Source: Cloeon dipterum (lineage: Eukaryota; Arthropoda; Insecta; Ephemeroptera; Baetidae). From it: a stretch of 64,000 nt of DNA. Under the pieces are notes generated by a model that did not search any database, had not been told where the DNA came from, and saw only the letters and a list, made by a program, of their open reading frames with translations. Shown here piece after piece: positions 31,735-62,692 of this stretch. A program made the translations under genes and the position numbers. Each line of letters begins with the position of its first letter. Position 1 is the stretch's first letter. Location of the stretch: contig NC_088787.1 in the NCBI RefSeq assembly GCF_949628265.1, positions 25,162,501-25,226,500 of the forward strand, read 5' to 3'.

Positions 31735-31989
31735 GGCGCTAAAAATCTCGTCGCAATTATAAAATAAACAGCACGCCACTCAACTTGCCCTGACATCCCT
31801 TTCGGGATTAAAGGGTGCAATCCCATTACACCCCTAATACACACCCCATCCCGAGCGTTTATTTTTGTATTCATTTTTGTGCGGAAAAGTGTAATTTAAC
31901 CACTTCTGAGACACTGAAAACAGAAATGGAGACCCCAAATACCCATATTTGGCTTCTAGCTTCCCAGAACCATCAACCCATTTAGTGCA

Positions 31990-33175: not shown

Positions 33176-33241
33176 ATAAACAGTTTTCTTTTATTCTGGG
33201 TAGTTTTTCGTTTCAATTTTACTTCATAATAATTTGAATTT

Positions 33242-33327
<86 letters not shown>

Positions 33328-33695
33328 TGTATGAATCGTTAAATAGAATAAAACAAAACAAAAACGTGGCAAAATATTTAGGCCGACGCAGATACGTGCA
33401 TCGTATCGCGTTGAGCACATTATCTAAGAGATAATTCACAGTGAAATTTCCCGTTAAGTGTTTAAACAATCGAACAACCAAAAACAAAATCGACTGATCC
33501 ATCCAAGATTAGTCAAAGGCAGTGTTATGTGACAAAAGCAATCAACGCTTGTTATCAGATGCATCAATATGAAAAACCAATCAAACGAGAGAAGACAGTA
33601 TCAAATTTTTGATTAATCAAATGACTCGGTATAAAAAGGGTTGTGTTTAAAATTATATAACCACTTTTGTCCTCTGCTAAAGTAGCAAGAACAAA
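33176..33695 (+). other. Spacer and promoter region of aldehyde oxidase 2
   Basis: Contains a long TA microsatellite and then about 370 bp that should hold the oxidase 2 promoter; GTATAAAAAGG at 33630 is a good TATA box, 66 bp before the start codon. Confidence 0.55.
33245..33325. repeat. (TA)n microsatellite, about 40 copies
   Basis: 81 bp of uninterrupted TA dinucleotides 70 bp right of the fold-back element. Copy number in the assembly may be unreliable. Frames read through it as Tyr-Ile repeats are artefacts. Confidence 0.97.
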
Positions 33696-36600: not shown

Positions 36601-39390
36601 TAAATAGTAAAATTGTTCTGTTCAATGTTTTATGTTCATAACAAAAAATACACTCGTATTCAAGATCAAAATTTAATATTACATTTTCTTTTAGGTCTTT
36701 TGCAGTGGAAAAGTGGAGTACGCTGGTCAAGTTGTTGGCTTGATTGTTGCAACTAGCAGAACCACGGCAATTCTGGGCGCTGGACTGGTCAGCGTCACAT
36801 ACGCGAAAACCGAAAAGCCGGTGCTCTCGGTCAAGGATGTCACGAAAGTGGTTAATGACCGAATGAAAGTAGTCAAGAAGAAAGACGAGCAAAAAGAGAA
36901 GGACAAAGGCAATTATAACAAATAAAAAATTCCAGCTAGTAAGAAAAGAAATTATAGTGAAAGCTGGAATTGTGTTCAATGGCACTTTTGAGATCGGCTC
37001 CCAATACCACATGCACATGGAGACTCAAACGTGCTTGGTGGTGCCAACTGAGGACGGTCTTGATGTCTACAGCGCGACCCAGTGGATGGACCACGTGCAG
37101 CAAGTAATCGCGGAGTTCCTAAATATCAAAGAGAGCTCGTGAGCTGAATATTGCCTTCATTATTGTATAATTCTGCTAACATTGCATTATTAGAATCAAC
37201 ATAACAGTTCGTCGACTCGGTGGAGCATATGGTGGAAAAATCACGCGTCCTGCTCTCGTCGCTGCTGCGTGCGCCCTGGCCGCAGACAAACTCGGAAAGC
37301 CTGTCAGAATTGTCATGAGCCTGGGAAGCAACATGGAAGTGTTCGGCAAAAGATTCCCTTACGTCAACAACTATGAAGTATAGACTCATATCTGCTACCA
37401 TAAGAAAATATTTGTCATGTCATATTCAAAGGTCGGAGTGGACAACGTTACAGGAAAGATAGCATACATCAACTCCACGTGCCAAATGGACTGCGGCTAC
37501 ACGGTAAACGAATCGCCTGGTTATGACGTGCCCAAGTTTTTCCAAAACTGCTACGAATCGACCAATTTCAACATGCAAGTGGAAGCAATCAAGACAGACA
37601 AGGCAACCAATGCTGCCTGCCGCGGCCCAGGCACCACCGAAGGGGTGGCTTTCATCGAGGAGATCATGGAGCACGTATCCAGGGTGCTCAAAATGGACCC
37701 ACTTCAGGTGCGCCTGAACAACATGCCCCAGATGGACACCCCGCTGCCTGCCATGATTGAAGACCTCAAGACATCGGCCGACTACGACAACCGCAAGGCC
37801 AACGTCCAAGCCTTTAATGCGGTATAGAAGATGATTTTCTTTATTTAACAAAGAATTTTAATTTGGAGTGACTAGGCGAATCGGTGGAAGAAGCGAGGAA
37901 TGGCCATTGTGCCCATGCAGTACCGCTTCCCCTGCGCAGGAAACTTCAGCGCCATGGTTTCCATTTACCACGGCGATGGCTCAGTCGCGATTTCGCACGG
38001 CGGAATCGAGATGGGACAGGGCATGAATACCAAGGTATTTAATTGAAACCAATTTAATTAGGTCATTACAAATATTTGCACTCAGGTCGCTCAAGTCGCT
38101 GCACACACCCTGAAAATTCCCCTTTCAAAAATATCCGTCAAACCAAGCAACAATGTGGTGGCAAACAATGGAATGGTGACCGGAGGTAGCGTTGGCAGTG
38201 AAAACGTTTCATACGTAAGTCATTCAAAATTGTATGCATCTCCCTCTTAGACAATCTAAAACACTAATGAGTCTCTTTTGTCTTGGCTGGAACCACGATC
38301 ATATTTATATTTTGAATATATATTTTTTAAATGGATCTATTTTATTTATGGGATATTTTTAATGAAAAAGGGACTTTCCTAGTGGCTGAAAAAATATTTA
38401 GAAACAAATCCAAAGAGTACGTACGATCGCCAAATATAAAAAAATGAGTGAATTTTCTTTTCACTTATTTGAAATAACCCTAGGCTGCCATGAAGAGCTG
38501 TCAGAAGTTGCTGGAGCGTCTTGATGCAGTCAGACAGGGCATGGAAGGAGATCCCACCTGGGAACAGGTCGTGGCGGAGGCGTACGCTCAAACTGTTGAG
38601 TTGAACGCAACCCATATGTAAAGTCATCGATGCGCATTATTCACGAGACAATTTGATTTTTTATATCGATTCCCCTCACAGGTTCACACCTGGCCAGGAG
38701 CTGTCCGAGTACAATATTTGGGGGGCCACCATTGCCGAGGTGGAGGTTGACATTCTAACCGGAGAACGCCAGGTTCTAAGGGTCGACCTGATTGAGGATG
38801 TTGGCCAGAGTTTGAGCCCGTGGGTCGACGTTGGCCAGATCGAAGGCGCCTTCGTCATGGGCATGGGCTACTGGCTCTCCGAGGAGCTCAAGTACGACCC
38901 TGACTCAGGTCGTCTTCTGAACACTCGCACTTGGGTACCAGAAAATTAAATTTTAAATAGAATTGCCAACTAATTAGTATTAATACAATAAAATGATTTG
39001 CAGAACTACAAAGTGCCTGGTGCCAAGGATATCCCTGCTGATTTCAGGATCAATTTCAGAAAGAATGCCGCAAACCCCAATGGACTTTACAATTCCAAAG
39101 GTTGGATGAATTGAATATTCTGTTCTCCGAATATTTAATAATTTTGAACAATTCAGCGACTGGTGAACCCGCTTTGAACATGACCATCGTTTGCTACTTC
39201 GCACTCAGGGACGCTCTGGACTCAGCACGCAAGGATGCTGGCAGCACAGAAGATTACTACGAAATCAGTAATTTTTAATAACAAAAATTGTCATCTTTAT
39301 ACTAACTGCTTTTTTGCAGAGCTTCCGGCAACGGTCGAGACCATTGCGGTTTCCAGTTTGACAGACCCCAGCCAATTTACTTTGGAGTAA
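33696..39390 (+). CDS. Aldehyde oxidase 2 of the tandem array
   Basis: Closest paralogue of oxidase 1, with the same 22-exon layout: 33696-33721, 33776-33840, 33886-34055, 34117-34277, 34707-34866, 34918-35343, 35400-35502, 35551-35678, 35735-35863, 35917-36111, 36171-36521, 36695-36908, 36958-37138, 37194-37377, 37432-37821, 37876-38034, 38086-38214, 38484-38617, 38682-38934, 39004-39100, 39157-39267, 39320-39390; 3837 nt, 1278 residues. Starts MWNSLFGK. Both iron-sulfur motifs ([24 protein letters not shown]) are intact; catalytic Glu1222 lies in TGEPAL. The substrate-site motif is AYGGKITR, again without the xanthine dehydrogenase Glu. Intron 12 (36909-36957) uses a GC donor. A TATA box lies at 33630. 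Complete and apparently functional. Confidence 0.95.
35787..36117 (+). other. Gene-conversion tract, oxidase 2 copy
   Basis: Partner of 26173-26503. The 53-bp intron at 35864-35916 is identical to the one in oxidase 1; the flanking exons differ at only a handful of positions, mostly synonymous. Confidence 0.8.
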
Positions 39391-40414
39391 ACTATAATCA
39401 CTGTTATACAAGGCAGTGTTGGTAGCGACTTTTCACGGATCCATCAGAAAAAAATAGGAAGAAATAAAATCGCACGGGAACTATAAGATGGCGCGAGGAA
39501 ATGGTGTTTATTTTCAATGCTTTTTGTATTACCTTAGTTTATATATAAATGAGTGTTGTTTATATTCGTTCATTTTGAATAAACTTTTGAATTATTTGGG
39601 AAAAATAAGCAAGTGTAATTTTTGTTATAATCAATTAGTAATATATTTTTTAGTTTATTTTTTGTAATTTCTTTTAAATGGATTTCAACCAGCAAATTTA
39701 ACGAAATTAGATCCAACAAGTCTTGATGCACATATATAGGAAATCGTTAAAAATGAACTTTGCCTGATATAAATCAATTATTGTATTTAACTGCTTATTG
39801 CAAGTCATCTTGCCTGTCAAAATAGCGTTAACGTTAAAGATTTCAATTCAACCCTAGAAATCTTATAGCACATAAATTTGATAGGCGCTCGTTTGCTTTG
39901 GGCCAATGCTGACTTTAAAGGTAATCAGCAAGATAGATAATTATATTGATTTGGGATGAAAATGCCCCTGCTTTTTATAAAATATCATGGAATTTTGAAA
40001 GATGATTTAAGTTTACAGTTTGACGGCGACCAATTAAACGTACTTGTAATAAATTGTCTACGAAATAATTTCTATCAATTTCGAATTCCATTCTATAACA
40101 GCCAATATATGGCTTTGAAAAGCAGATAACCGCATTCACGAAAGGATTAACAGCGCGCTGCTTTAATTTTCCTTATCGAGGCGTGATCGATTCAAACGAA
40201 AAACCCGCAGCAATCTTTTTGGATGCCTCGAGCGCAAACAAAGGCACTCACAATCAGCGGCTGGATTGGGTTGTCGCTTACAGTGGCCTCACATATTATC
40301 TAAACAAATTTGGTCAGAACCACGTGACCGAGATAACTTTCATCGCTTATTTTGGAGTAGGCGACAGATCGAATATATTTTCTGGAGGTGCTGTTGGGTC
40401 GTCCTCTCGTTGCC
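39391..40414 (+). other. Oxidase 2 3' UTR and oxidase 3 promoter region
   Basis: Two AATAAA hexamers (about 39462 and 39578) mark the oxidase 2 end. The rest, to the start of oxidase 3, is AT-rich with several reverse GATA-type sites (for example CCTTATCGAGG near 40171). A frame reaching the start region (from 40183) has no homology and merely overlaps the oxidase 3 first exon. Confidence 0.45.
39578..39583 (+). terminator. Polyadenylation signal of aldehyde oxidase 2
   Basis: AATAAA 188 bp after the stop codon; an earlier copy lies near 39462. Confidence 0.55.
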
Positions 40415-43400
40415 ATGTGGAATTATTTGTTTTCTGGGTTAGTGACGATTATTCTTTCCAAAAAAAAAACTTAATCAACAACATTAGTTTGCATTATTTT
40501 GAGTACTGATTGTGATAATGAAGATTATCAGTTATTTCGCAAAAAAAAACGGTGTTGCATAATTTATTTAATCATCTTAATTGCTTCCAGAGACACATCT
40601 CAAGAGACGAACATGGCCAGCGAGGTGACGCTGACTATCAATGGGAAATCCATAACAGGTGTTTGATTTGTCTTTTTGAGAGAAATTAATATTTAAAATG
40701 TATGAACAGCTGAAATAGTTTTTGGCTATTTAATAATTTTATCAGATAGTTTTTGACCTTTGATTGTTTTGATCCAACAAAGACTGATGCTATCAGAGAA
40801 AAATTTATCTACATTTAAGAGATTTTACATATAAGAAAGCTAGGATGAAAGGAATTATATTTTCAACTAAAATCTCTGAAAACAAATCATTTGAGCATCT
40901 ATAAACACTCAAGTTTTCACTATATTAGCAAATTTTCAATTCAAAACGAATTCCGTTAACAGTCGGCAATGAGGTTTTGGCGACCACCACCCTGAGCTCA
41001 TATCTTCGCGAGAACCTCAAGCTAACCGGCACCAAAGTCAACTGCAATGAAGGCATTTGCGGCGCGTGCACTGTCGTTGCAAAAATCGAGCACCCGGTCT
41101 CGAAAACTAAGGAGACATTTTCAATTAACTCGGTAATAACCAACCAATAATCAAAATTATGATTTTTGGTTCAGCGACGTGGTTTTAGTGTTTAGTCCCG
41201 ATTCTGAACTGCCATGGCTGGGAAATCACAACGATTGAGGGCGTTGGCAATAGGAAGGATGACTACCATCCCGTGCAGAAGCAACTGGCCGAGAAGAACG
41301 CCACCCAGTGCGGATTCTGCTCACCTGGATTCGCAATGAACATGTTCAGGTCAGTCTAAATTTATCCATAAAAATTGCTACTTAACTGCAAATTGTATAC
41401 AAAATTACAAATTTAAAAGAAAGGATTATTGCAAACTCCGCACTGCTAAAAATTTTGACAGGAAAATAATGTTTTTCTGCATTTTAAGAAAAAATGAAAA
41501 TTTTCACACTAAAAGATGGAATAAAATATTTTATTAACAATTTAAGCCTGTTGGCTGACGAGAAGAAGCCTACAATGCAGCAGGTAGAGGATGCCTTCGG
41601 AGGCAACATTTGTCGCTGTACCGGCTACAGGTCCATTCTGGAAGCATACAAGGCCATGGCTAGCGACGCTCCTGCAATCACCAGGAGGCAATGCGCCGAT
41701 ATCGAGGTGAAATTTCAAATCTTAAAGAATGTCCGGATGAATGAAATTAGTGCACTCAAGGATTTGGAAAAAATTTGCTCGAAAAGTGGAAAACCGTGCT
41801 CTGGAGAGTGCAAGAAGGTTACGGCACAGCCGATCAAAATGCAGTTGGGCGCGGAAAACTGGAGGAAAGTCGTCACAACGACAGAATTGTTCGCGGCCTT
41901 TGCAGAAATTGGCGAAGATAGCTACAAACTGGTCGCAGGAAATACGTCGGAAGGTAATTTTTCTCTTTAATTAAGCCAAATAAAATAATTTAATATGTTT
42001 TCTGAACAGGCGTGTACCGCTCGCAAAGCGTGGTGCACTACATCGACATCAAAGACATCCCTGACCTGCGCCAGGTGTCCGCAGGTGTCGAAAATTTCAA
42101 ACTGGGGGCGAGTTCAACTTTGACTGAAGCGGCCCGCGCGTTGAGGACGCAGGCGAGCACCGCAGGGTTCAAGTACTTGAACGAAATTGCCAATCACTGG
42201 GAAAATATCGCAAATCTGCCAATCAGGAATGTGAGGGCATAAATATATATTTTTTCATGGAAAATTACAACTGTTCAATTTCAGATTGGCACTATTGCCG
42301 GCAACTTGAGCATGAAAAAGGAGCACCCCGAGTTTGCATCTGATGTTTTCACTCTTTTGGAGGCTGTTGGAGCTCAGCTGCAAATTTGTGAGATTTTGTT
42401 TTGACAATTTGTTGATATTAATAAAGTGAGATTACATTTTGGCTTTGTTCAATAATAAACAAAGCAAAAAACTATATATGAACATTAACAATTAATTCAA
42501 ATGGTTTAATATCACAGAAGACGATTTAAATTCATAAATATTTTCATCCGTTTGAAAATAATTTGCCCTATTTAGACTGCTGTTATTTCCCAATGCAAAA
42601 ATGTTAAAAAAATTATTTTCGTAATTTTAATCAATTTTAAATAGTGACTGGAGTGGAAAAGCGCGAAGTAGTGTCGCTGCCTGGCTTCCTGAACTACAGC
42701 ATGAAGAAGCGAGTGCTCGAGAGCGTGCTGTTCCCGGCGCTGGACGACGCCACGCACCGCCTACGCACGTTCCACGTGCTGCCGCGCACGCAGAGCAGCG
42801 TGAGCTATGTGAATGCCGCCTTCCTCGTCCGACTGAGCAGCGCGACGTCGTGGGACGTGGCTGAAAAGCCGCGCATCGTCTTTGGCGGCATCCGCGCCTC
42901 CTTCATCCACGCCACGGCCACCGAGAACCTGCTCGTCAGCAAGAACATCCTCGATCCGGTCGTCGCGTCGCAGGCCATCAGCGTCCTCAACTCGGAGGTC
43001 AGGCCCGACGAGGTACTCCCGGGCGCTGGCGTCAACTACAGGAGGAAGCTGGCCGTCGGCCTCTTCTACAAGTTCCTCCTTGGCCTCGATCCCAACCAGG
43101 TATTGAAGGCGGTTGCGTCAATAATTGCTAATTTGAATTGAAAAAATTTCAGGTCGATCCGAGGTACAAATCTGGTGCGGAAGTGCTCACGCGGGAACTG
43201 TCCTCGTCTAAGCAAGATTTCGAGACTAACGATAGCGTTTTCCCCTTGAACCAGCCGATCAGTAAAGTCGAGGCTTTAGCCCAATGCGCGGGTATATTTA
43301 TTTTTATTTTAATTAAATAAACGCCGGATTGCTTCAAGAAAATTTAAATACTAATTCAACACGGTCCATTTAAAAAATACAACTAATATGCAGTAAATTA

Positions 43401-46400
43401 AAAAATAATTATTCGCCATACAGGAGAAATTGAGTACATTGACGACATTCCTACAAGGCCAGGCGAACTTCACGCTGCTTTCGTCCTAACGAAGCAAGCA
43501 ACAGGAGCTATTGTTAAATACAACACTGACGAAGCAGCTGTAATACATATTTTTTAAATAAAAATATCTATAGCCTTTAATTTCACTTTCAATTCTAGAA
43601 AGTGCCCGGCTATCTGAACTTCTACTCTGCCGCCGATTTGGATGGAGCCCCAAATTCGTTCACCCCAACAGATGTTTACTCGAGTTTCCTCGACGACGAA
43701 GAAGTAAATATTTAATGGTTTATTAAACGCAAAATATGCGTGCGACACTCTACATCTAATGGCTAATCAATTTTTACACATTTTCGCTGCTTCTCTCAAC
43801 GTAAGTTTTCTTGCTGTACACTTTTGGATATGATATTTTTCACACGTCTCGCCACAGAACTTACATCTACAATCATAATTAGGCTCATAGTGAAACGTTG
43901 CATTATTACAGAAAATATAGTGATATCCATGACAAGCAAATCTTGCAAAAATATGTCTATCAGGAAAATCAGGGCCACGCCAGTTATCATTAATCATAGT
44001 TTCAGTCTCAAAAAACTCAGAACAAATTAACAGTCTATTTGTTTTCTTTTCTTCACAGAACTTTATATACACTTCAGTCTCTGGTAGATTAAATCTAACC
44101 TTTAAGTCAGTTACATATAAATTGGAGTCTTTCGCAATCAATTCATAAACATAACGAGATCTATTATACTTAGAAATTCCAAGCACTTTTTTAAAATAGC
44201 GAGTTTTCACTCTTTCTAGATTTACAAAATCCATATTAGTTAGATGTGGCCAGATAATTTCAATTCCATATGAGGCTGTTGGCGAGATTTTAAGGTCGAA
44301 GAGTTTAACCGCAGTATTGATAGAAAGCCTGTTTAAATTTTTAATGCTATAAGTAGCCATTAAAGCTGCTCGCACTCTTTTTTCTACATGTCTCGAAAAG
44401 GACGTGCCCGAGGTTTGGAACACAACACCTAAGTATGAGAATTCAGACACAAATTCAACATTTAAACCATCTAATTCAATTTTATCAGTTTTCGCATACC
44501 TGCCCCGCCCAGAATTCCTGAATTTCATCACTTTACACTTTTCAATATTTAGCTGAAGGCTCCTACTTAACAAATATTCCTTGAAGGCGACAATTGCAAT
44601 ATTCAAATCACTCAAGAACTCACTCGTTAGGACAATGTCGTCCGCAAATAGAATAGCTTTCAAGCCAGGAATGTGTTTAATAACTTCATTAATATCATTA
44701 ATTGAGATATTAAAAAGGAAAGGAGATAGGCAGCCCCCTTGACGCACGCCATTCGACTGGACAATAACCTCTAATTCTGCGACACCATCAACAATTTTCA
44801 AAAAATTTACATCTAAGGAATTAGCTAAATATTTTAGTTCCACTTTAGAAACATTTCCCGATTCAACAATTTTCCTAAAAATCATTTTTCTATCAACGGT
44901 GTCAAAGGCTTTCTTAACGTCTAAAAACAAAGCGTATAGTGGCTTCTTTCTTTCATAGACCGACAGATTAATTTAAACTAGTATATTTTTCAAAGTTTTA
45001 CGATTGTGTAAAAAATTCTTCAGATCTTCTGTAGCAAAGAAGTGAAATACGCGGGGCAGCCAGTTGGCATTGTGGTAGCCGAGACAAGGGCTGCCGCGGT
45101 GCAGGCGGCTGAGCTGGTTGTCATCGAATATGAGGCCAATGCTCCAAAACCGGTGCTTGACATGATGGAAGTCATCAAAATGACCAGAGACCGAGTGGTT
45201 GTCGTGGAAAAGAATGACGAGAATCCTCCAAAATGTACTTATCACATACAAAATCTAAGCGGTTTAATAATTTTTTGCAACATTCGCAGCCGCTAATACG
45301 GTCAAAGGGACTTTCGAGATCGGACACCAGTACCCGTTGTACATGGAGAACTTGTCGAGCATAGTGGTGCCGCACGACGGCGGCTACGACGTCTACCCTT
45401 CCACCCAGTGGATGGACCTGGACCAAAACGTCGTTGCTCGAACTGTTGGCGTACCAGCCAACAAGTGCGTTGGAAATTTTATTTTTTGAAACAATTTTTA
45501 AATACTCAAATCTAAGATACTGAAACAATATTTCGACTCTTTTAATCAGAGTAAATAATTTTTCTCGAATTTATCTCCAAGGGTCACCGTGTATGTGAAG
45601 CGAATTGGTGGTGGATTCGGCGGCAAGCAGTCGCGATCGAGCATGGTGTCAGCAGCGTGCGCCCTAGCCGCCAAAAAGCACAACAGGGCTGTGCGTCTCG
45701 TCTTGCCCCTGACAACCAACATGGAAGTCACCAGCAAGAGATTTGGCCAGCGCAACGAATATGAGGCAAGTAGTGTTGTTCTGTACAGTAAATATTTTGG
45801 TTTAATAATTTTTAACTATGTATCATAAAATCAATCATCAATAAAAAATCTGTTGAATATTGGCAGGTGGGTTTCGACAATACGGGCAAAATCGAGTATG
45901 TGACAATGCACGTAATCCAAGACAGTGGCTGCTCGCGAAACGAGTCGCCCATGGGAATTTTTGTGGCTTTCTTCGAAAGCTGCTACGGAAGTGAAGGGTA
46001 CAAAATCCAGCCACAAGAAGTGCTGACTAACAAGGCTTCCAACGGACCTATTAGAGGACCAGGTTCAATACTTAATACTCTACCCTGCTTCTAAATGGCC
46101 CAATATTTTGAACGGTTAAATTTCATATACCTATTAAAATACGTTGCAGGACCAATTGAGGGAATTGCCTTTCACGACGAAATCATGGAGCGAATTGCAA
46201 AGCACCTTAAAAAGGACCCGCTGGAGGTGAAACTGGTGAACATGCAGAAATTGGACAGCCCCCTGCCAAATCTGATAAATGAAATCAAGAGCAAGGCAGA
46301 ATACGACAAAAGGAAGCAAGAGGTCGAAGCTTACAACCAGGTATAAGGTATAAAGGTTTAAAAATAGCACTATAATCAAGTTACTGCTGGCGAACCCAGA

Positions 46401-49405: not shown

Positions 49406-52400
49406 ATGAAAAACGCAGCTTTAGAATGCGGTGAGTGAGTTGGTAAAACGAAATCATGTCAACCGTAAATTTCGAACAGCAAAATTTGATAAATTGTCTT
49501 CATTTATGAGTAACATATGTATGGGAAATATTGATTTTGAGAAATAAATTCATTTTATTTGTGGATTTTTGAATTTATAACTTATGTTCTTTCCTCACGC
49601 AGTTCAATCCTGGAATGCAGATTTCGTTGAAAACAATCTCAAGGATTGCTTAGAAAAACTGAGTGACTATGAAACCTGGCAAAAGGTGAGTTCCATTTTT
49701 GATTCCTGTGTGAATTATTTAAGTTTTATTTACTTTTTACTTTGATTTGTAATATATAAATATGCACTTAATCAACCAAATATTGACTTCAAAAATTATT
49801 TATTCGCCCCACAATAGGTAAGTCTTTACTCGGCCACGCATTCACACCATTACAAGGAAGGTCAGCTGGTCAGGATTCAGGGCATGATCCAGGATATGCA
49901 CAACCCTGAGTACTATGTCTCCAAATATACAGTCTGCAACAAGGCCACTGGGACCAAAACCGTGCGATCCGGCAAATACAAGGACGTAATGAGAGTTGAG
50001 GTATGCCAAAAATGTTTGATTAGCATGCTTGTCATGCTACGTTACTTACAACATGCACAGATTTATAATTAATTGATAATTTGAGTGGCCAGCTGAATCA
50101 TTTGTGTTAATTAAGTCTGAAATTATATGTCAAAATAATCTCAATTAAATCTTTCAGCCTGGAGAAAGCGCCAGGTGTGCCAAAGATGGCAAGGACGCTA
50201 GAGAACGACAGAACCTTTTCTGCATCCCTATTCCTGCCTTGAACAAGTGGGCGCTTGACGTATCCTTTTCTAGTGTGCCCTTTTTATATTTACAAGTCGT
50301 AGTGCTTACATTTCCTTGACTTAAATCCAGATACACAAGCAAAATGTTGCTTTGCCGGAAATCCATGCGGAATTCGGCCAAAGCCAAGGGGTGAAAAGGA
50401 AGGAAATGGATGAGGATCACAATGATGAAGAAATGGTATGCGAAGATAGCTTCAAGGAGGTGAAGAAAACTGAAGTCAGGATTGAAAATGTGGCGCCCAC
50501 CAGCAGTGCAAGTGAAAACCAGTCCCCTCAGAACTTGGACGACATCAAGAATTTCAGTTTCCCTGTCAAAAACGTAGAGGGCCAGCCGTTTTACCTCAAA
50601 GTCTGTTAAGAAGCCTCCTAGAAATTACCGTTCCTAAATATTAGTGTTTTGTGTGCAGGTCTACGAATACGATCAGTCAACTGTGATGAACAGCATGGTG
50701 GAGGTGGTGGGTTTCTTATCAGCCGACCCAGCTATATCCTACGTGGAGGACGACATGGAGGAGAGCGGGAAGAAGCTCCCGGCCTCCTTGATTCCCCGCT
50801 TGCATGTAGTCTGCCTAAAGAATGTGGAGCACTGCAATCCTCTGCTTCCCTCTTTCAACTTCTCATCTGGTTGGTATTCCAATTGAAAAATTCTTTCGCA
50901 TTTTACGTTATTAATGTTTCAGATGCAGCGCTTGCTTTTGCAAATGCCCAGGCAGCGGTGTGCGACCTCAAGATTATTTTCACACCTTTGCTGTTGGGGG
51001 ACAAGCTTGCTGTCGACTTTCTTATTTGCAATCTGCTATCCAAAGTGTAAGTAGTAACGTTATTCGACATTAAATAAAAAAAAATGATGTACCCTGATTA
51101 AATAATGTTTTATGAACAAATCGATGTTGTGTGAAATAACTTGGAATTAGCATATTATTAAACTACTTTTGAAAATTATAAATAACACTATTGGCCATGC
51201 TTTCTTAACTCTTAACTGTATGAGGGACAAAATTATTAACCTGCACAAACTGGGAACAAAGTACACTTGAGAAACAATTCTGTTGGTAATTTTATTGGGC
51301 ATAAGTTGAGTCGGGAGAGGTACAAACTCTTCCAAAATTCGTGAAAACAATGGAGTGCCATTCACCCACCCTGTTATTTGTTCATTTGCCTTTTTTTAAA
51401 CTTTCAAATTAATGAAACTCACAATCAGACCTTATTTTGAGACTATTTTTCGCATTGTTTAACTGACCCAATCATCAATTATTAATCGACAAAAATAATT
51501 TATTTAATTTCAAACACTCATAGGTTTGTGAGGAAAGATGTGACTCAGTTAGGTCACTTATCTCTCAACCTTCATGAGGTGCCAAAAATGACTGGATATG
51601 TGGAGAAATTTTACAGCATTCTTGAACAGCTGGTGACAAAATCACACTACTTTCCCCTCACAATTGAAGTGCTCAACTCGACGCCTTTCGTTCCCAAGTA
51701 AATCACATACCTTTAACAGTTGAAATTGTTTTTTATTCACCAATTTATCGCTATAGGAAGGACTACACATGTGACAAACTGAGAAGCGGCCTTCTGCAGC
51801 TATCCCAGGGAACGTTTTTGGTGTTTGATGAGACTAAAATGACTGTTGGTCAACTCCTTGACTTGGGTAGATCTTAAAAACCGTAATTTTTCAGTTTGGA
51901 AATCCTAGTATTATAATCGTACAGGAACTAAAAACGTGATGGCTCTGAAGAGCTTTCTGGAGCGCCAAGAGGTGGAATACGATTTTCAATTTTACGCGAC
52001 GCCTTTCCAAACTGATTTGTCAATCATAATATTTTCTGAAAGGAAATCCCTGTTTGAAGTAAGTAATCACTTTGTTTGATTTGTTTAAATTTCAACTTTG
52101 CTTTTTCAGTGTGATGCGCGGGTTCCACTTGAGAGCGACCCTGAAGCTGTGAAGGCGTTGGAGGCCTCGTTTGAAGCGGCTGTTTTGTACCTCAGGAATG
52201 ACGAAGTCACCACCAGAATCAGGCGTTTCTTGACCGCCGCGCAGCTGGCCAATTATGAGATTCCGGAGATTGTTCAAACGGTAACAAATTTGGCTTTTTT
52301 GTTTATGTTAATTTGCGCCCTTCATTTAAATTTTGTATCAAGTTTTTGAACATTTGAAGACTTATTTTACAATATGTCTTAAAAAATAACCTCTTTGTGT

Positions 52401-52784
52401 TGATTTCAAATAACACAAGGAGAGTTCGAGAGTTGAAGGGCCTTCTGCATTGCTAATAGATATTCACAAGACAGTCTTTGCCTGACAAAAAAAGATCTAC
52501 GCAATATTTCATGAATTAAAATTAATTATGTTTAATATTATATGCAGAGAGTTCAAGAAGACTTTGTCGAAATGCGCCAGAGGGACAAAAACTTCACTGG
52601 CGATGATTTGCATATTGTGCTGAACTTGGCCAGGTATATAATATTCAAATGTGTGAATTAGTTTATAAACGAATTAAATCAAAACGGCAGGTTGCTAACC
52701 CTGAGCACTGGAGCACAAGCGCTGACTGCTGAAATCTGGAAGCAAGCATGCGCCATGGAAGGGGCGAGGAGGGCGCGACTTTAA
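49406..52784 (+). CDS. MCMBP: Mini-chromosome maintenance complex-binding protein
   Basis: Binds MCM3-7 subcomplexes and helps assemble, protect or unload the replicative MCM helicase in the nucleus. Thirteen exons: 49406-49430, 49603-49685, 49818-50000, 50158-50259, 50331-50600, 50659-50869, 50923-51046, 51524-51697, 51757-51866, 51925-52058, 52110-52280, 52548-52633 and 52691-52784; 1767 nt, 588 residues. Family landmarks: the N-terminal HSHHYKEGQLVRIQGMIQD block and an acidic/Ser-rich variable segment in exon 5. Later ones are LRSGLLQLSQGTFLVFDET, then VEYDFQFYATPF, then EDFVEMRQRD followed by DDLHIVLNLARLLTLS, and the basic end RRARL. These follow the vertebrate protein closely. Convergent with the lectin gene on the other strand: the two stop codons are only 262 bp apart. 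Confidence 0.95.
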
Positions 52785-53046
52785 CATTAAGGTTAGGATC
52801 ATCAATATCATAGAAATCATGTTTGGATTTTGTAACGGTTCAGGAGCACAGTCCTGCCCTTTTTTGTTAATCAACAATTTTCGGTGATTTGAATTATTAT
52901 TGTAATTTTTCATCTGCAAAAAGATGATTTTAAAAGAAAGAATTCAGTTTTCGCCTGTAAGCCACAAGGTGCGTTTAATATATTTATATTTTGAAACAGA
53001 TTGTTTTTTTCCTGATTTGTTCAATCCTGATACCATGCAACTTGCT

Positions 53047-55622
53047 CTACATGGATTTCTCGCAAACGTAATAACATGGGTGCCCACAGCTAACGTCATA
53101 CCAATGTCCGTCTCTAGAGCATTAGTTTGTCAGTTAAGTGAGATTTACTTTAAAATTAAAATAATACATATTGATCACGCAGTCCTCTGAAGCGAACGCT
53201 GCTGGCTCGTTCGGAGCCCAGCCAACGTAATCCAGCGTCGCGTTAGATTCCCATTTTGTGTAGTTGGAGTGGCCTCTCTTGTTGAGTCCGGAGTAAACCC
53301 AATTTCCTTCAATACCTGCAACGGCCCCATGTACAAACGTTGGAAACCACCTATTGTTTTAACCTTTTCTCATGATAGCCCACTGGACACAAAAGTTTTC
53401 CTGGACAGTCTCTGCAGACGCCAGCACCAATCCCTTGTCAACGCATTTCTGCTTTGCCGTGTCGTAGGCAACCTGACAGAAATTATATTCGAGTATTAAA
53501 TTTTAAGTTTTTACAAGAAGCAATGTTTACAGCGTCAGGGAAAGCTTCAAATTGGCCTGAAAATCAATTGCAGATCAGAAATATTTTTCTAGATTTGAGG
53601 AAAAGATTAATACCGGTTTTGCAATTGTCAGTTGGCGCAGGGTTAGACTCGCAAACGTATGAAATTGAAGCTGTGCAACCTATCTCAACCCACAGAGAAT
53701 TCCTTAAAATACCGGTTAGAATTTTAAATTCCATTTTATCTGAACTCTCACTGGAATGCAGCACAGTGTGCTCCAGTCCAAGATTTCAAGTTATAGGAAG
53801 GAGCAAATCCTGAATAGTTCAACGGCACTCCATTTGCCCAGTACTGGAAGTACATGGATCCCATTTTGTTGAGTGAGTGCCACAGCTGCGCTCCCTTTTT
53901 GCCTTTAAATTATAGACAAGGAAGGAATGAATGGAATGTACACCGCAATTATAATAAGAAAAAATCACCCGCGGCGTAAATGAGAAATTGCACGCAATAA
54001 TTTTCCTGTGGAGTTTCCAATGTCGCAAGATCTCCGTTATTATTTTTGCAATCGTCCTTAGCGTCGATCCATTTTTTCTATTTAACAAAAGAGATACTTA
54101 GCGGAGTAATTATCAATATCGCTTAGAGCATTCCTTACAGTTGCCGTCGAAATAGTATAGCTTGAAACTACAAAAGGCGTTAGTGAGAATTATGAGGGTA
54201 GAAAATCAGTAAATAATATTACATCCATCGCACGGGTGTTTGAAATCATTGGTCTCGCACACGTAGCGCCAGGATAAGCCACAGGGCGAATCAACCCAGT
54301 GCTGATTGCTAATTGTTATCTCTTTGTCAGTTGGTCGCGTATTTACGAAACAGTAATTTTATACAGAAAAACTACGCAGTCCTCGGTAGAAAATGCTTCA
54401 GGGTTATTTACGTCCCAGTCGGTGTAGGTTAGCGCGCTACCGCTCAGCCACTGGCTATAATTGCTCAGTCCGCGCTTGTCCATTCCTATCCAATGCTGAG
54501 TCACTCCGAATCCTTGAATAAAATCATGAATGAGTTTTATCTTTTGAAAATTTCCTGTGTAAAATTTCGTATTGTAAAATATTGTGTATAGATTGAATTG
54601 AAGCACATATAAAAAATAAGCTAAAGCTTAAAAAATGATTTAGTTTTTTATGCGTTGTCTCATGCATGGTACGATTTTGTTTTGCTTGTCAGAGTTGAGA
54701 GTTATAATGTTTTTTATTTTCACGTCGTAAAAATCATTTTTTATTATTTTGATAAAAATTGAATCCTTCTCATGGTATTGAAAAACAGAAATTTCAATTA
54801 TTAATAATGCTGTCACCAAAGCATAGCAAAAACAAGTGTAGTAATCAAGTATAAGATTACCCATCTCGACCAGATACTGTCCCAAGCATAAATTTTCCTC
54901 GGGAGTCTCGGCACTAACGAGTGAGCTATTTTTCATAATACACTCGAACTTCGCGTCGTCGTATATTCTCTGTATAAATTGGAATTCATAGCATGGATTT
55001 AATATTTTTTTTAATATGGAAAATTGAACAGAAACGTGTGTTTTACCGTGTCCGAAGAGAGGGTAAACTTGTATTCTGATTACAGGTATCAATTACGAGA
55101 GGGCTACACACTAAAAGACAAAGTCATACTAGCGCAGACGTCTTGCTTAGCTGGCGACTCACAAACGTAAATATTGGAGCCCATGCACGGTGTGTCGATC
55201 CACTCGTCGTTTCTATGAATTTGTTATTTCATTGGATACGATCGAGAAAAGTATGCATACAAGTAGGCTGCGCAGTTTTCAGTCTTCAGCTGAGCCGGTT
55301 CGCCAGCTTTCCAGGCGGTGAATGAGATGGAAGTTCCGTCAAACCACTGCAAATAGTTGCTCTGGCCGATTTTGTTCAAGCCGATAAAGACGATGCTCGC
55401 AGATTTTCCTGAATTTTAATTTAACACTTACGGGATTTACAAAATGTTTGCGATATAGGCTTTAGGCTTACCAGCCATGGCGATTTTGTCTTTAATGCAC
55501 GCGTGATCTTTGTCCGTTTTCACTGTGGCCAAATCCGCTGATTTCAATTTACACGCCGCCCTGGCTGCACCCCATGTTTGCGTGTCAGTTGAAATTGTGT
55601 ACGTTGACGCCACTTAAAAACG
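53047..55622 (-). repeat. Lectin cassette III (domains 9-12, types A-B-C-D)
   Basis: Domain 9 (A: STYTISTDTQTWGAAR, CESPAKQDVC), 10 (B: YDDAKFEC, WDVNNPEAFSTEDC), 11 (C: LWHSLNKMG, PSYNLKSWTGAHC) and 12 (D: NWVYSGLNKRGHSNYTKW, ending CEKSM then stop). Domain 12 ends in the stop exactly where types D in the other cassettes continue into the next linker. Confidence 0.8.
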
Positions 55623-58600
55623 GATTTTAAGAAAGTAAAGATTTTCACAAGTTTAAAAGTCAAAGTTTTTTTTTCAAAAATCTAAAATTCTAACTCAATG
55701 TATTCATTATACAGAAATGTGAAATTAAGGCGCAAAGGGTTTGGATCGCAGTCTTATCTTGCTATAAAATTATATTTTATTTTGGCTTCAAAAAACCACT
55801 CACGTCCTTGACAGGGGTCCACAATCACAGCCTTTTCGCAAACGTAGTAGTTTCCCACAACGCAGTTAATATCATACCACTGGCCCTGTCTGAAAAGGCG
55901 AAAACTCTTCATTTTTATTGAGCCAAACTACATGCAGTAAATCATACATGTTGAGCATGCAATCTTCACTGGCGAACCCTGACGGCTCGCCGGGCGGGAA
56001 GCTTCTATAAGTGAGAGGGGCACCGTTTTCCCATTTTGTGTAGTTAGTCTGACCGATTTTATTCAATCCGGTATAAACCCAGTTGTCATAAACGCCTAAA
56101 TTGCAAACTTAAAATTTATATTTTTAGATACACGAAAGTAAAAAACCCTTTTTCAATATCGCTCTTTGAACGCAAATATTTTCCGTGACCGTCTCCATAT
56201 TCGCAATAGCCATTCCTTTCGATTTGCATCTCAGTTTTGAAGTAGCATAATCGACCTTGCGTCTTTGGTTAGATTCAATATTTAAAAGCACAATGCAACT
56301 TACTTGTTCGGCGAACACTTCAAATTGTCCTGCGAATTGCTGCTTATAAATCACGCGTGAAATAACAATTTGATCCCTACCATCCGTGCAGATTTCTTTC
56401 GGACTAGGCTTTGATTCGCAAACGTACGGGATCTCCCAGGTACAGGGAATGTCACCCCAAATACCACTCCTAGTATTTAATTTTTATTTTGAAACAGACC
56501 AGGCCTGTTAGAATAGTCTTACTCGAATCCTCCGCAATGCTCTCCAGTCCAAGACTTCAAATTGTAGCTCGGGTCAAAGTCACTGTAGGTGAGTGGCTCG
56601 CCGTTTGCCCATTGGATGAAGTAAACTGTGCCCAACTTGCTCAACGAATGCCACATCCGCTCGTCCTTTTTACCTGCATTCATAAACTTTTGACTAAAAA
56701 GTGTACAAAAATTTGCACATTGCGAATAATACGCTTCATTAAAACAATTTTAGAAATTTTTAATATTAATTCTACATCGATTTCGTCTTGGATCATGTTT
56801 CAGATTTTTTTTTAAAAAAAATTGAATATCGGGCTTCATTTAATAACTTTTACCACCTCTAAATGCCAATTTTGTGTTCAAGCGTATCGATATAACGTAG
56901 CTTTGTTGGATTGTAATATAAGTGATATATGCGCATTACATTATTCTAAACGTCGCTCTAAATAAAAAATATCTCCGACGCGATCCACTTATAATGTTAG
57001 TAATATGGTAAATTTGATGTTGTAGTCGACCGAAGGTGTGTATTTAAAAAAATTCAATCTATCCATTTTTCTTACCAGCCATATATATTTTATATCTGAC
57101 GCAAAAATTCTCCTCTGGCGTCTCCATGGACACAAGATCTCCGCCCAGTTTCTTGCACTCCTCCGATGCATAAATCCAATTTTTCTGAAAGGTTGCAACT
57201 TACAAATATTAATGTGGTGATAGTTCGCATACTCACGTTATTGTTTGTGACAATCGTGTAAGTGGAAACTAATAACAATATTATTAGAAGATGTTTTCTT
57301 TTAATTTTTAATTGCGTACAATCTGCACATGGGTCTTTGTAGTCGTCCTCGCACACATATCTGTAGGCTACTCCGCAGGGCGAGTCATGCCAGTGATGGT
57401 TTCTGAAGCACAACTAAAAATTCATGTCCCAAAAATAAATGTAAAAACGAACAAGGCAACAGCGCAATGTTCGCTGGCAAATGCCTCAGGGTTGTTGACG
57501 TCCCAGTCCGTGAAAGTCAGAAGTTCGCCGTTTGACCACTTTGTATGATTGATGGTTCTTCTCTTGTCGAGACCGATTGTGAGTGGCGTGGACGACAACT
57601 CTTTAAATAAAGTTGAACGTCGTTTTTGTTTTTAATATTTCGGCTTTTACCCAGTCCCGCGATATACTGTTGCAAGCACATGCTTTTAGAGGGGTTGTCC
57701 AAATCCACAATCGTCATGTTCTTTTTTAAGCATTCGAACCGCGCATCGTCATACACCCTCTGCAGGTTTCACAAATTTAAATTTCCCGTAAAAACGTTTC
57801 TGTCATTGCCATATTACCGCTTCAGTAGATACTGAGAAGCTGTATTCTAAAATTGAATATAGAAAATGAGTTACGCATCTTTTTGGGAAAATTGGCTATT
57901 ACTTGAGCAGACGTCGATAGGTGCCGGGGATTCGCAAACGTAAGCGTTTGATCCTTTACAATCGACGTCCATCCAGGCACCGTCTCTGCAATATTTACAT
58001 GGGACCGTCTTGAAACGGTTAATATTTTAAATTAAAATCCCAACTTGTACGCAGAGCAATGTTCCGTCTTAAATTGCGCTGGTTCACCAGATTTCCAATA
58101 AGTCGCAGTCGGCGTACTTCCGCTGTACAATGACGTATAGTTGCTCCAGCCCATTTTATTTAGACCGTGGAAAACGATGCTTGTAGTTTTTCCTGCGAGT
58201 GCACCAAAACGTGAATTTTAACCCACTATTAGTGTTTTTGAAATTCATTTCACCTGCCAAGTCGATTTTGTCCTTGACGCAAGCGTGCTCCTTCGCGCTG
58301 TCGATGCTGACCAGATCTCCGCCCTGCTTTTTGCACTCGGATCGTGCGCCACCCCAGGTCTTTGTGTCGGTCGAAACTTTGTATGTGGAAGGCACTGTGA
58401 AAACATTGCAAGACCATGTAAAATATTTGATGTCCTGCTTTTGTGCATACTATGTTAGTCATAAATTTAATTTAAACCCTATTTAAAACTTTAAATTAAA
58501 CTTTTAAAAATTTAATTTAAATTTAGTTTGCAATGGAACCAACTAACAAAGTCTATATTAAAAAGATTTAGATTGGATGTATGGCTTGGATACCTAAAAT

Positions 58601-61600
58601 ATAAAAAATAAAACATTTTAATATATATTTGCAGGGTAATCGTTTCTTATTTGCAATAAAATAAATTTTGGCAAGAGTTGACCCATCTTTTGGCATTGCG
58701 CCTATCTTAACTATGCTTTTACCTTAAACTATGTATACTAGACGGGTGGCAAACTTAAAAAAATGCACTCCTTACGTCCTTTGCAGGGGTCGATAACAAT
58801 TGCCTTTTCACAGACGTAATAAGCTAATCCTTCGCAGGGCAAATCGTACCAATGGGCGAAGCTGTTTGCAAAAAATTGAGTCGAGTCTCAAGTGCAAATG
58901 AAGAAATAAATACAAATGGATCCCGCACTGCTCATGAGGGAAATGCGCTGGTTCGCCTCTGTTCCAATCCAGATAAGTCAGAGGTGCTTCATTGTACCAC
59001 TTGGTGTAATTGCTCGCGCCTTTCCTGTTCAGACCGTTCCAAACATAGTTGAAGGTCAAACCTTTAAAAATAAACTCAATTAATCGCGATTAATTATGAT
59101 TTGAAAATTTCCAAACCTTTCTCGTCAAGCAAACGCTGAATGCAAATGTTTTCCTCTCTGGTCTCAGGTACTGACAAAGCCATCCCGTTTTTTCTGCACT
59201 CAGTTACTGCCGCTTCAAAAGTGAGCTACACACCGTACGAATTTTTTAATAAAATTTTGAACAATGAAGAGTGCCTAAATCAACGAGGCATTGACTCAAA
59301 ATCCTGCCTATCGAGAATTACATTGAACCAATTACAACGTGCCACCAAGTTTCAAATTGCAACAGGGAATTTTTAAGTTTCTTACCACAGAAGTGGATGC
59401 AACGAATTGATCTGGATGGCAAAGTAATTTTAATTTTAAACCCTCTTACTTTAAATTTTGCATACCAGGATCGCAGCGGTCGATCTGTGCAGATTCACAA
59501 ACGTACCGCAACTTCCAGTCGCATGGAACGTCTCCCCATCTCCCGTACCTAAGAATGCACAATAATAACAATAGATCAGAATTAAAGCATGCTTTTGACT
59601 TTTGGCACAAAAGAACACATACTCGAAAGCTCCACAACTCTCCCAGGGTATCTGCGCTGGATTTCCTGGCGCCCAGTCATTGTAAGTCAGTGGCTCTCCG
59701 TTGTTCCAAGAGTCAAAGTTCGGCTGTCCAAACATATTCAAAGAGTGCCACACGTGATCAGCCGCCGTTATGCCTATATATGTTACATATCTAGAGATAT
59801 TTATTTTAATTTGCCACCAAACTCAATACCTGCAGACTTTAAAATGGACTTGACACAGATATTTTCCTGCGGTGTTTCCATAGAAGTCAGTTCCATTCCA
59901 AGTTTTTTACAATTCAGCCTCGCTTGCGCCCACTTAGCCTTTTTCAAAACATTTTGATAGAGCTCCAATAGTATCATAAGTGGACTTAAAGTAATAACTA
60001 TACCGTGTCGTTAGAAAGTACGTGTTTTGTTGTCACTGCGATATAAAAAGTGTAAATAATTTTTACAAATAAAACAAATTTATACTATTAAAACAAGGGT
60101 CGAGGACGACTGCATCTTCACAGGCATAACGCAGGGGTTGAGTGCACGAAACATCAAACCAATGGAAATTGCTATGAATTTGTCATATGTCAATTAATAA
60201 ATTAAAAACCATAAATATATTTCATATTTTTCAATTGAATTGCAGCTACTGTGATTTTGCTAAATTCGACCAGAAATATTTTTTTCTAATATGGCAACTA
60301 CACGGCTCGCATTTTTTTATTTTTAGCAATTCCTACTTAGCTTGCACGCAATTTTCAGTGCCAAACTGGGCTGGGTTGCCTGCCGACCAGTCGAGATAGA
60401 GTAAAGGTTTTGCGTTAACCCAAGAAGTGTAGTTCGCATTTCCAGTCATTGTTAAGCCGATATAAACGGGTTCCCTGGCGAGCCCTAACAGTTTTAAATT
60501 TTTAATAAATATATTAAATTAATTAAGTCCCATATGATCTTGCCAAGCATGGTGAGCTGCCTTTGGAAGCATGTGTTCTGATCTCGAGTCTCCAGGCTAA
60601 CCAGATCCATTTTCTTCTTCTGACATTCCGCCCTTGCATCGTCAAAAGACAACTTTGTACTCGATATTTCAACCGGTTGCTCGTCTAAGAATAACACTTT
60701 ACACCAATTCGCTGGTCAAAAAAAGCATTATTTTCACTTGTGCACATGTCGAATGGCTGGGGTGTTTCGCAAACGTAGTTGTAGGTGTCTGTGCAAGAGG
60801 CTCCAATCCACTTTCCTCCGCTGGAACAAAATGCTCAAGAAAAGATTTTGATACACGCGGCGCGAGAGTTACGAAATCAAAGAGCAGTCTTCAGTGTCAA
60901 TCTTCGCAGGGGCGCCAGAATTCCAATCGGTGTAGGTGAGTGACTGTCCGCTCAGCCACTGAGAGTAGCTTGGTAGGCCGATTTTGTTGAGTGCTTGCCA
61001 AAACGGAGTCGCTGTTTGTTCTTAAAAATCGGAAACCGCTGAGTGAGCAGGAAATCGAAATTCTTGATGGGACTTACTGGCATTTTCAATTATGAATTTA
61101 ACGCAGGTATTTTCTTCCGTGGTTTCCATGTTTACAAGGTCCATGCTTTTCTTCTGGCACTCCAATCTTGCGTTAGCCCATGTTTGCTGAAAATGTATGT
61201 CACTCAAAAGTTTACACATCGACCGAAAGAAATAAAAATGTCATATATTACCTTGTCAGCCGAAAGAGTGTAGTTAGATTTGCCTGAATTAAATGGTTTA
61301 ATTTTAAATGTTTTCTAAAAACACTTATATACTTTCAAAGCAGGGTGGGCGAGGAGGAGTCGTGGTTGGTGGAGTTTGACCGTCTGGTAGAGTCGTCTTG
61401 CTTAATAATAAATATACGTTTGAATTTTAAGTCACAAATTTGATTAATCTTCAGGCATTACGTATGTGTGCCCAAATTGTATCAACGAGCAATAAAATGC
61501 TTTTTCTCTATGTCCCCGTTATCGAATTTCTTTATTTTAAATTGTAAGGACTTGTTAACTAACTATAATGACCTACTAACTATATTATAGTTAGTTAACA

Positions 61601-62692
61601 AGTTAAAGTAGATCTTTACAGGCCAACAATTAAGAGCATTTTGCATTGTTGACTACAGCAGGTAGTTCATTGAGTTTAATGTTTGTGAATTATATGAAGA
61701 GTTTATCTCTACAATCTCCAAAAATTAAAATTAATAAATTCCAGCATGATTACTGGCTAAATTTTAAAGTATAGACCACGTAAAGTGTTTGTTACTTTGT
61801 GCTGCCGGGCCCTGCAGTTGTGATTCCGGCGTCTGATGCCATAGTTGTACCACCTGGAGCCCTAGTCGTAGCTCCTGGAATCCCAGTCGTAGCTCCCGGA
61901 ACCCCAGTTGTAGCTCCTGAAACCCCAGTCGTAGCTCCTGGGGTTCCAGTTGTTGCTCCTGGTGCGCCCTGGACAACAGTAGTTCCACCTGGAGCTGGAG
62001 GAAGTGGGTTGGACACTCTTGGCAAAAGAGTGCCGCCAGCTGCATCCGTCAAACCTCCAGGGCCTGGAGTGCCGTTGGAACCAGCTCCTTCAGAAAGTGG
62101 CACTATGAAGCTATAATTACATAATGAAGTCTTTTTACTCACCTGGAGCATTTGGATCCGATCCAGCAGGGTTTGAAGGGCCAGAACCAACAAGAGTTGC
62201 GGAGTTGGGACCGGCAGTTGAAGAAGGACCTGACCCGGCAGGGTTCAAAGGGTCTGCTATCGATGGATCATCAGGATTTGAAGGAATCATTATAGGGTTG
62301 GAAGGGTCTATTGTATTTGATGGGTCCGACACGGCCGGATTCGACGGATCTGCAGGGTTTGATGGATCTAGAGGATTTTTTGGGTCCATAGGGTTTGATG
62401 GGTCTGCTGGTTCTTTCCCTGGAGAAAAAGTTCCTCCTCCAGGGGCCGTGATTTTTGGTTTCGGTGGCTTTTGGTTTGACTTTGTTGTTTTGAGAAACCT
62501 TGTAGAATTTTTGCTCGTCTTAGAGCACCGCACCATACCGCAGCACTTGATAATTTGAAATCGTCTTTTTTGTTTAGTAATCACGATGACAGTTCTGCGT
62601 GGACTGCGCTTTTCAAGGAGGTGAATCTCCTTCATTGATGATGGTGCGAAATTATCTATAAATAAAATTACTTTTGTTGGCAAAACGATCAT
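53047..62692 (-). CDS. Secreted-type protein with 12 C-type lectin-like domains
   Basis: A single multi-exon gene. An N-terminal Pro/Gly/Thr-rich head (61796-62692, split by a ~40-bp intron at 62103-62142) is followed by 12 C-type lectin-like domains (CTLDs). In order they span 61283-60740, 60695-60082, 60038-59460, 59405-58775, 58395-57898, 57850-57318, 57272-56385, 56345-55800, 55622-55125, 55085-54220, 54160-53605 and 53558-53047. Each domain is cut by about three short introns and has the family cysteines plus the usual W..G(L/M) and Y..W cores. Where I checked inter-domain junctions (4 to 5, 8 to 9) the phases join. The stop (53047-53049) follows the last domain, so there is no membrane anchor. 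The true first exon and any signal peptide are unresolved; 62692 is the first in-frame ATG. Length is roughly 1,800-1,900 residues. Likely an extracellular adhesion or immune protein; function is not shown by sequence. Confidence 0.88.
55800..58395 (-). repeat. Lectin cassette II (domains 5-8, types A-B-C-D)
   Basis: Domain 5 (A: STYKVSTDTKTWGGAR, CESPAPIDVC), 6 (B: YDDARFEC, WDVNNPEAFASEHC), 7 (C: MWHSLSKLG, PSYNLKSWTGEHC) and 8 (D: NWVYTGLNKIGQTNYTKW, CEKAVIVDPC). About 2.7 kb offset from cassette III. Confidence 0.8.
58775..61283 (-). repeat. Lectin cassette I (domains 1-4, types A-B-C-D)
   Basis: Domain 1 (A type: TWANAR, CETPQPFDMC), domain 2 (B type: DDARAEC, HWFDVSC), domain 3 (C type: VWHSLNMFG, CGAF) and domain 4 (D type: YVWNGLNRKGASNYTKW, CEKAIVIDPC). 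This is the most diverged copy. Confidence 0.75.
61850..61975 (-). repeat. 21-bp coding minisatellite (GATTGxP repeats)
   Basis: About six tandem copies of a 7-residue unit GATTG(T/V/I)(P/S) in the lectin's head, a Thr-rich mucin-like stretch likely to be O-glycosylated. Confidence 0.8.
62260..62420 (-). repeat. Degenerate DPSNP coding repeats
   Basis: Roughly a dozen degenerate 3-5-residue Pro/Asn/Asp units (DPSNP, DPKNP, DPLNP) in the first large exon of the lectin gene. The unit is 15 bp and imperfect. It probably forms an extended acidic spacer. Confidence 0.7.

Follow-up and report, generated by a model that had tools for sequence, protein, structure and literature searches.

A twelve-domain C-type lectin-like gene in the mayfly Cloeon dipterum and its probable growth by block doubling

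How does a single gene come to carry one fold twelve times over, and does the protein that it encodes still bind sugar? Both questions are raised by a minus-strand gene of the mayfly Cloeon dipterum (Ephemeroptera, Baetidae), which lies in a stretch of 64,000 nucleotides (the window; assembly GCF_949628265.1, contig NC_088787.1, positions 25,162,501 to 25,226,500) and encodes twelve C-type lectin-like domains (CTLDs, D1 to D12). This gene is referred to as copy 1, and two tandem paralogues just beyond the window as copies 2 and 3. As a whole, the evidence is best explained, with fair confidence, by a probably secreted, multivalent, non-canonical CTLD protein that grew by block doubling.

A preliminary description of this DNA placed twelve CTLDs of four types, in the order ABCD three times, at 53047-61283. 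The span is exact for the CTLD part, which runs from 61283, where the first exon of D1 begins, to 53047, the last base of the stop codon. Number and order are both borne out by a simple splice model that combines codon usage with splice-site scores, with some exons corrected by hand, and all twelve spliced domains match Pfam Lectin_C (PF00059; best E 1e-14). Each CTLD is split into three or four short exons, most of which score individually below the Lectin_C cut-off, so an unspliced scan reveals little in this region. Including its upstream exons, the model comprises 49 exons and 5271 nt and encodes 1756 amino acids with no internal stop; all 48 acceptors are AG, and the donors are GT in 47 cases and GC in one. 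The three cassettes start at 61283, 58394 and 55612, corresponding to periods of 2.89 and 2.78 kb, and the last cassette measures 2.57 kb. Intron phases repeat as 1-0-1-2, or as 1-1-2 in D2, D5 and D9, whose first two exons are fused. Phase 1 opens every module and also closes domains 1 to 11; whole modules bounded in this way can be duplicated with the reading frame intact.

The continuous open model joins all twelve domains, in keeping with the single gene first proposed. If the locus instead held several small genes, for example three of four domains each, their borders might be sought in the D4-D5 and D8-D9 introns, which measure 381 and 191 nt against the usual 50-60 nt. However, introns within D7 (402 nt) and D10 (348 nt) are equally long, the model is free of stops from D1 to D12 with phase 1 at every module boundary, and copy 2 is laid out alike. 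Moreover, a trailing linker cysteine is kept in domains 1 to 11 and is missing only from the last. Separate genes are consequently very improbable.

Beyond the CTLD span, the gene continues within the window as far as 62545; a signal-peptide-like exon 1, with counterparts in copies 2 and 3, lies about 0.9 kb outside it. Exons 2 to 4 encode a Cys-rich start, a DPSNP-rich sequence and seven-residue repeats of the GATTGVP type; a Pfam search of this N-terminal part (275 residues) finds nothing at E 0.1. Among the 19-residue hydropathy windows, the top six (1.39-1.77) all begin at residues 2-7, and none of the remainder is above 1.39. Because the peaks are confined to these starts, the product is predicted to be secreted. 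Neither a transmembrane helix nor a cytoplasmic tail was found in the hydropathy windows, and the protein ends in CEKSM right after the last CTLD.

The private motifs reported for three of the types are present as described. Type A domains (D1, D5 and D9) contain TWANAR, TWGGAR and TWGAAR as well as CETPQPFDMC, CESPAPIDVC and CESPAKQDVC, respectively. Type B domains (D2, D6 and D10) contain DDARAEC, DDARFEC and DDAKFEC, with WDVNNPEAF in D6 and D10, and type C domains (D3, D7 and D11) contain WHSLNMFG, WHSLSKLG and WHSLNKMG, with PSYNLKSWTG in D7 and D11. For type D (D4, D8 and D12), NYTKW recurs in all three domains, whereas the WxGLN core is confined to D4 and reads YxGLN in D8 and D12. Mean pairwise identity among the twelve domains is 45.7% within types and 33.8% between them, a within-type mean that 11 of 100,000 random partitions into four triples reach. 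The ranges overlap (lowest within-type value 36.6%, highest between-type value 44.8%), and pairwise identity alone does not settle the type of D1 (43% to D3, 41 and 40% to D5 and D9) or of D2 (43% to D4, 38 and 37% to D6 and D10). Exon lengths agree with the types: a third exon of 151 nt is found only in D3, D7 and D11, and a first exon of 26 nt only in D4, D8 and D12. Along the protein, the first conserved core aromatic alternates between W, in all six A and C domains, and F or Y, in all six B and D domains.

The order in which the domains arose is reflected in a maximum-likelihood tree of 32 domains from the three gene copies. Types C and D are supported by this tree, D as one clade at 95/94* and C at 84/89. 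With starred support, each of the four types pairs cassette II with cassette III, in line with the late split proposed in the preliminary description. At a deeper level, types A and C part from B and D (98/96*), and concatenated half-cassettes separate AB from CD (99/96*). Together with the alternating aromatic, these splits suggest doubling from one domain to two, four and eight, followed by one more cassette to give twelve, a history that the trees favour and do not prove. One CTLD would have doubled into a pair X-Y, and the pair into a four-domain unit whose A and C derive from X and whose B and D derive from Y. Doubling of this unit would have produced cassette I and a second cassette that later split into II and III. 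Tandem copying of the entire gene would have come next, accompanied by gene conversion between copies. An ancestral four-domain gene, as originally suggested, fits the threefold ABCD cassette and is favoured by the tree, but the four-domain unit itself looks like a doubled two-domain unit. No four-domain gene was met in the genome examined, in which two- and eight-domain genes were found. Synonymous sites between cassettes are near saturation (proportion of differences, pS, 0.77-0.80), which makes the cassette duplication much older than the gene duplication.

Genome DNA reaching 46 kb beyond the window revealed the tandem paralogues, which form a cluster of 32 kb with copy 1. Copy 2, of 1742 amino acids, is an intact twelve-CTLD gene with the layout of copy 1. 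Copy 3 reads ABCDABCD; splice sites are usable all through its CTLD part, the stop follows its last domain immediately, and its N-terminal exons are modelled only roughly. An eight-domain relative, which the preliminary description had proposed seeking in related genomes, is thus present next door in the same genome. Over the CTLD parts, the ratio of nonsynonymous to synonymous divergence (dN/dS) is 0.17 between copies 1 and 2, 0.19 between 1 and 3, and 0.17 between 2 and 3, and the copies accordingly look to be under purifying selection. Synonymous differences are patchy, at 1.0 in D1 and 34.2 in D3 between copies 1 and 2, and at 5.0 in D5 and 36.3 in D8 between copies 1 and 3, a pattern that suggests gene conversion among the copies. 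The same patchiness speaks against uncollapsed haplotypes in the assembly, a reading prompted by long stretches of 96% identity at an offset of about 13.5 kb. Copy 3 also has eight domains and a stop of its own, and first introns differ in size (2376 versus 693 nt), so that assembly duplicates appear highly unlikely.

Two further observations concern the tandem region. CTLD 3 of copy 2 (extended coordinates 72849-73402) has 34 and 41 synonymous differences to copies 1 and 3, far above neighbouring domains, and may be a stretch left untouched by gene conversion. The tandem duplication starts as far back as 52020, pairing window positions 52020-52785 with extended coordinates from 65499. By eye, the duplicated part seems to include the 3' end of a plus-strand neighbour gene, a fragment of which would then sit between the copies; a peptide of this neighbour has no PDB match at E 0.01.

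Copy 3 bears on one step of the history, as it could be either a surviving earlier stage or a twelve-domain gene shortened by loss of cassette III. In the domain tree, its D5-D8 lie inside the II/III split, together with their counterparts in copies 1 and 2. This split therefore predates the copies, and a gene with cassette III probably existed earlier, so that copy 3 may well have lost that cassette. On the other side, its last domain ends like D12 and like the end of a two-domain relative (L014, described below), with the stop directly after the final CTLD, and gene conversion could have blurred the order. We lean slightly towards shortening.

More distant relatives were found elsewhere in the genome, which holds at least 106 Lectin_C matches (150 of 375 candidates scored). 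Protein searches used cassette I, cassette II and the second domain of L014 as queries. Both cassettes match the cluster strongly. Outside it, cassette II matches only C1:29.407 Mb (E 1e-3), while cassette I matches C1:7.973, C1:29.407 and C5:11.964 Mb (E 1e-2) and, more weakly, C3:6.722, C1:31.215 and C3:15.276 Mb. Loci L014 (C1:29.407 Mb), L015 (C1:7.973 Mb) and L016 (C5:11.964 Mb) each contain two CTLDs in the 6-10 kb examined. The second domain of L014 retrieves its own three loci first (7 matches); the other 13 matches comprise 10 in the cluster and three elsewhere (C3:35.895, C5:12.856 and C5:13.833 Mb), the best of which ranks among the cluster matches. Sequence searches from both sides thus point to the three dual-CTLD loci as the nearest relatives found. 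L014 resembles the cluster in its exons (109/145/98 nt in the first domain, where a small first exon is uncertain, and 32/112/148/70 nt in the second), in a Thr-rich stalk ending in TPCP, and in a stop that follows its last CTLD at once; in L015 and L016 the same two CTLDs are seen in pieces. L014 differs in having two domains only, with a best identity to any cluster domain of 32% for the first and 37% for the second. A branch at 99/95* unites the 20 domains of copies 1 and 3 and six dual-gene domains against 14 other CTLDs of the genome, in a tree that omits the near-identical copy 2. The 14 outgroup CTLDs are a non-random choice of near full-length, stop-free domains; some probably read through an intron and several form long branches. 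As to whether the dual genes are ordered X-Y or Y-X, the first domain of L014 falls with B/D and the second with A/C at 70/81, although the reverse placements are not rejected by the approximately unbiased (AU) test (p 0.12 and 0.24), and a grouping of the two with each other narrowly escapes rejection (p 0.054). Scanned with the profile, neither the window below 52.5 kb nor extended coordinates 85-110 kb yielded a further CTLD of the cluster kind.

Whether the twelve domains bind sugar is a separate matter. The sugar-binding calcium site of C-type lectins is marked by an EPN or QPD motif together with WND. EPN and QPD are also described for C-type lectins (CTLs) in the available part of PMC7379682. 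In an alignment of copy 1, no domain has both motifs and none has either. From D1 to D12, the place of EPN/QPD is taken by APA, NPA, NPA, EPA, EPA, NPE, NLK, EPS, EPA, NPE, NLK and EPA, and that of WND by WIG, WFD, WGD, WYD, WMD, WHD, WGD, WYD, WID, WVD, WVE and WYD. The label 'lectin' given in the preliminary description is therefore doubtful. An ordinary calcium-dependent lectin or opsonin whose CTLDs bind microbial sugars, in the manner of immulectins or of the domains of mannose receptors, would agree with the Lectin_C match of every domain and with mannose receptor family ectodomains as the best solved-structure matches of the profile. Insect dual-CTLD immulectins do take part in immune responses, according to the accessible text of PMC7379682. 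Against the complete absence of both motifs, such a lectin is nonetheless unlikely.

The four core cysteines of the CTLD superfamily, C20, C92, C105 and C113, whose two disulphide bonds are predicted, are invariant in all twelve aligned domains, as is C38. A linker cysteine precedes each domain (twelve in all, including one before D1), and the last domain has no trailing one; this parity suggests that each linker cysteine pairs with C38 of the following domain. CTLD 12 has an extra cysteine, CGHPCYYVCEKSM, which is common to copy 2 and missing from the last domain of copy 3, and which could allow chain-to-chain linkage. An N-glycosylation sequon occurs in 10 of the 12 domains of copy 1.

From these features a non-canonical binding protein can be proposed. 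It would begin with a signal peptide, continue in a mucin-like stalk rich in Cys and in Pro/Thr/Gly, and end in the series ABCDABCDABCD, about 1756 residues in all, and would probably be secreted. With the canonical calcium-dependent sugar site presumably lost, other CTLD surfaces would do the binding. Its role is most likely that of a multivalent extracellular binder or scaffold, either opsonin- or agglutinin-like or as a component of mucus or matrix.

Several points weigh against this reading of structure and history. Types A and B, proposed on a par with C and D, are weakly supported by the main tree: A reaches only 61/0, and B does not form one clade in the best tree, although the AU test does not reject its monophyly (p 0.43). 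Adding one dual-gene domain pair lowers the (A,C)|(B,D) split to 70/81, and A, B and C then need two changes each. With six dual-gene domains and the 14 outgroup CTLDs, support is 88/85 for AC, 59/76 for BD and 52/66 for the cluster domains as a whole, and type C takes two changes. Loss of the motifs was read from an alignment and not from a structure, and the signal peptide was called by eye and from hydropathy. The stalk could fit cuticle, mucus or haemolymph.

On the account given here, the gene is a legible example of how a large repeat protein grows through successive duplication of symmetric (phase 1-1) exon modules, with relatives of 2, 8 and 12 domains available for comparison within one genome. 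A bolder and more tentative version would have a single gene record the whole series of 1, 2, 4, 8 and then 12, alongside those relatives, while a sugar-binding fold was turned into a secreted, mucin-stalked, twelve-part non-canonical binding rod, whose A, B, C and D positions may each present a different ligand site. The case also serves as a warning that large arthropod CTLD proteins, likely to be named lectins or mannose receptors automatically, may not bind sugar classically.

Table 1. Features of the copy 1 gene model (window coordinates unless marked as extended)
Feature	Coordinates	Strand	Details and basis
Exon 1, signal-peptide-like MTSNTFALVALTFAAA	64969..64922 (extended, outside window)	-	Gene model
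Exon 2: Cys-rich start (CCGMVRC), basic stretch, DPSNP-rich low-complexity part	62143..62545	-	Gene model; no Pfam match
Exon 3: GATTG(V/I)P 7-residue repeats, mucin-like Thr/Pro/Gly-rich linker	61796..62102	-	21-nt repeats, model
Exon 4: TTLPDGQTPPTTTPPRPPCFE linker, holds Cys preceding CTLD 1	61333..61400	-	Model
CTLD 1, type A, cassette I	60738..61283	-	Exons 32/109/148/83 nt; model, alignment, Pfam
CTLD 2, type B, cassette I	60086..60684	-	Exons 141/148/86 nt; sole GC-AG intron of gene; Pfam
CTLD 3, type C, cassette I	59466..60035	-	Exons 32/109/151/83 nt; model, alignment, Pfam
CTLD 4, type D, cassette I	58776..59411	-	Exons 26/109/148/86 nt; model, alignment, Pfam
CTLD 5, type A, cassette II	57903..58394	-	Exons 141/148/83 nt; model, alignment, Pfam
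CTLD 6, type B, cassette II	57320..57846	-	Exons 29/109/148/83 nt; model, alignment, Pfam
CTLD 7, type C, cassette II	56381..57268	-	Exons 32/109/151/89 nt; model, alignment, Pfam
CTLD 8, type D, cassette II	55804..56329	-	Exons 26/109/148/86 nt; model, alignment, Pfam
CTLD 9, type A, cassette III	55130..55612	-	Exons 141/148/83 nt; model, alignment, Pfam
CTLD 10, type B, cassette III	54223..55075	-	Exons 29/109/148/86 nt; model, alignment, Pfam
CTLD 11, type C, cassette III	53614..54167	-	Exons 29/109/151/89 nt; model, alignment, Pfam
CTLD 12, type D, cassette III	53047..53556	-	Exons 26/109/139/67 nt; stop directly after YYVCEKSM; Pfam

Another CTLD array of the genome, at C2:6.33-6.39 Mb, was considered as kin for its similar spacing and set aside, as each unit holds a single CTLD in two pieces with a different exon plan, and a DNA comparison at E 1e-10 finds no similarity between array and cluster. 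Within C2:6315001-6395000 (L006-L013), four near-identical units with one single-CTLD gene each lie head to tail about 13.5 kb apart, with 99.4% identity over a 33-kb self-match; they are either a recent array or an assembly artefact. Elsewhere in the window, one pair of frames (34.7 and 41.5 kb) and a second pair (29.5 and 38.6 kb), all within 29533-41967, presumably belong to tandem xanthine dehydrogenase/aldehyde oxidase genes, and a minus-strand open frame of 401 amino acids (43770-44972) resembles what we take to be the reverse transcriptase of a retroelement.

Among known systems, the mannose receptor family (MRC1, MRC2, PLA2R and DEC-205) provides the best PDB sequence matches of the CTLD profile. 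Its members carry 8-10 tandem CTLDs, most of them without a canonical sugar site, together with ricin-type, FNII, transmembrane and cytoplasmic parts. Copies 1 and 2, with 12 CTLDs each, fall outside this range; copy 3, with eight, would fall within it. In copy 1, ricin-type and FNII domains are not seen in the N-terminal part at Pfam E 0.1, nor are a transmembrane helix and tail seen by hydropathy.

Insect CTL proteins have one, two or three CTLDs, the triple ones being mentioned for Lepidoptera, in the available part of PMC7379682. Like the cluster gene, the dual-CTLD immulectins treated there have tandem CTLDs that differ by position; unlike copy 1, they have two CTLDs instead of 12, and many keep EPN or QPD. 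Their cysteine pairs are predicted as 1-2, 3-6 and 4-5 (PMC7379682, same part), whereas the extra pair of copy 1 seems, from the parity argument, to join the linker cysteine to C38 of the next domain. Among the freely accessible papers listed, going by titles and the openings of abstracts, none named a twelve-CTLD insect protein of this design, and the available main text of the genome paper on Cloeon dipterum (PMC7250882) does not contain the word 'lectin'. A predicted Fugu protein, DEC-205-FUSE, has CTLDs in two groups of 5 and 10 (7 in assembly v.3), as given in the accessible text of PMC514892. It differs from the cluster in being a vertebrate GenScan prediction that also contains LCCL and other domains (PMC514892, same text). 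Given its 5 + 10 CTLDs, the number twelve alone is not unprecedented.

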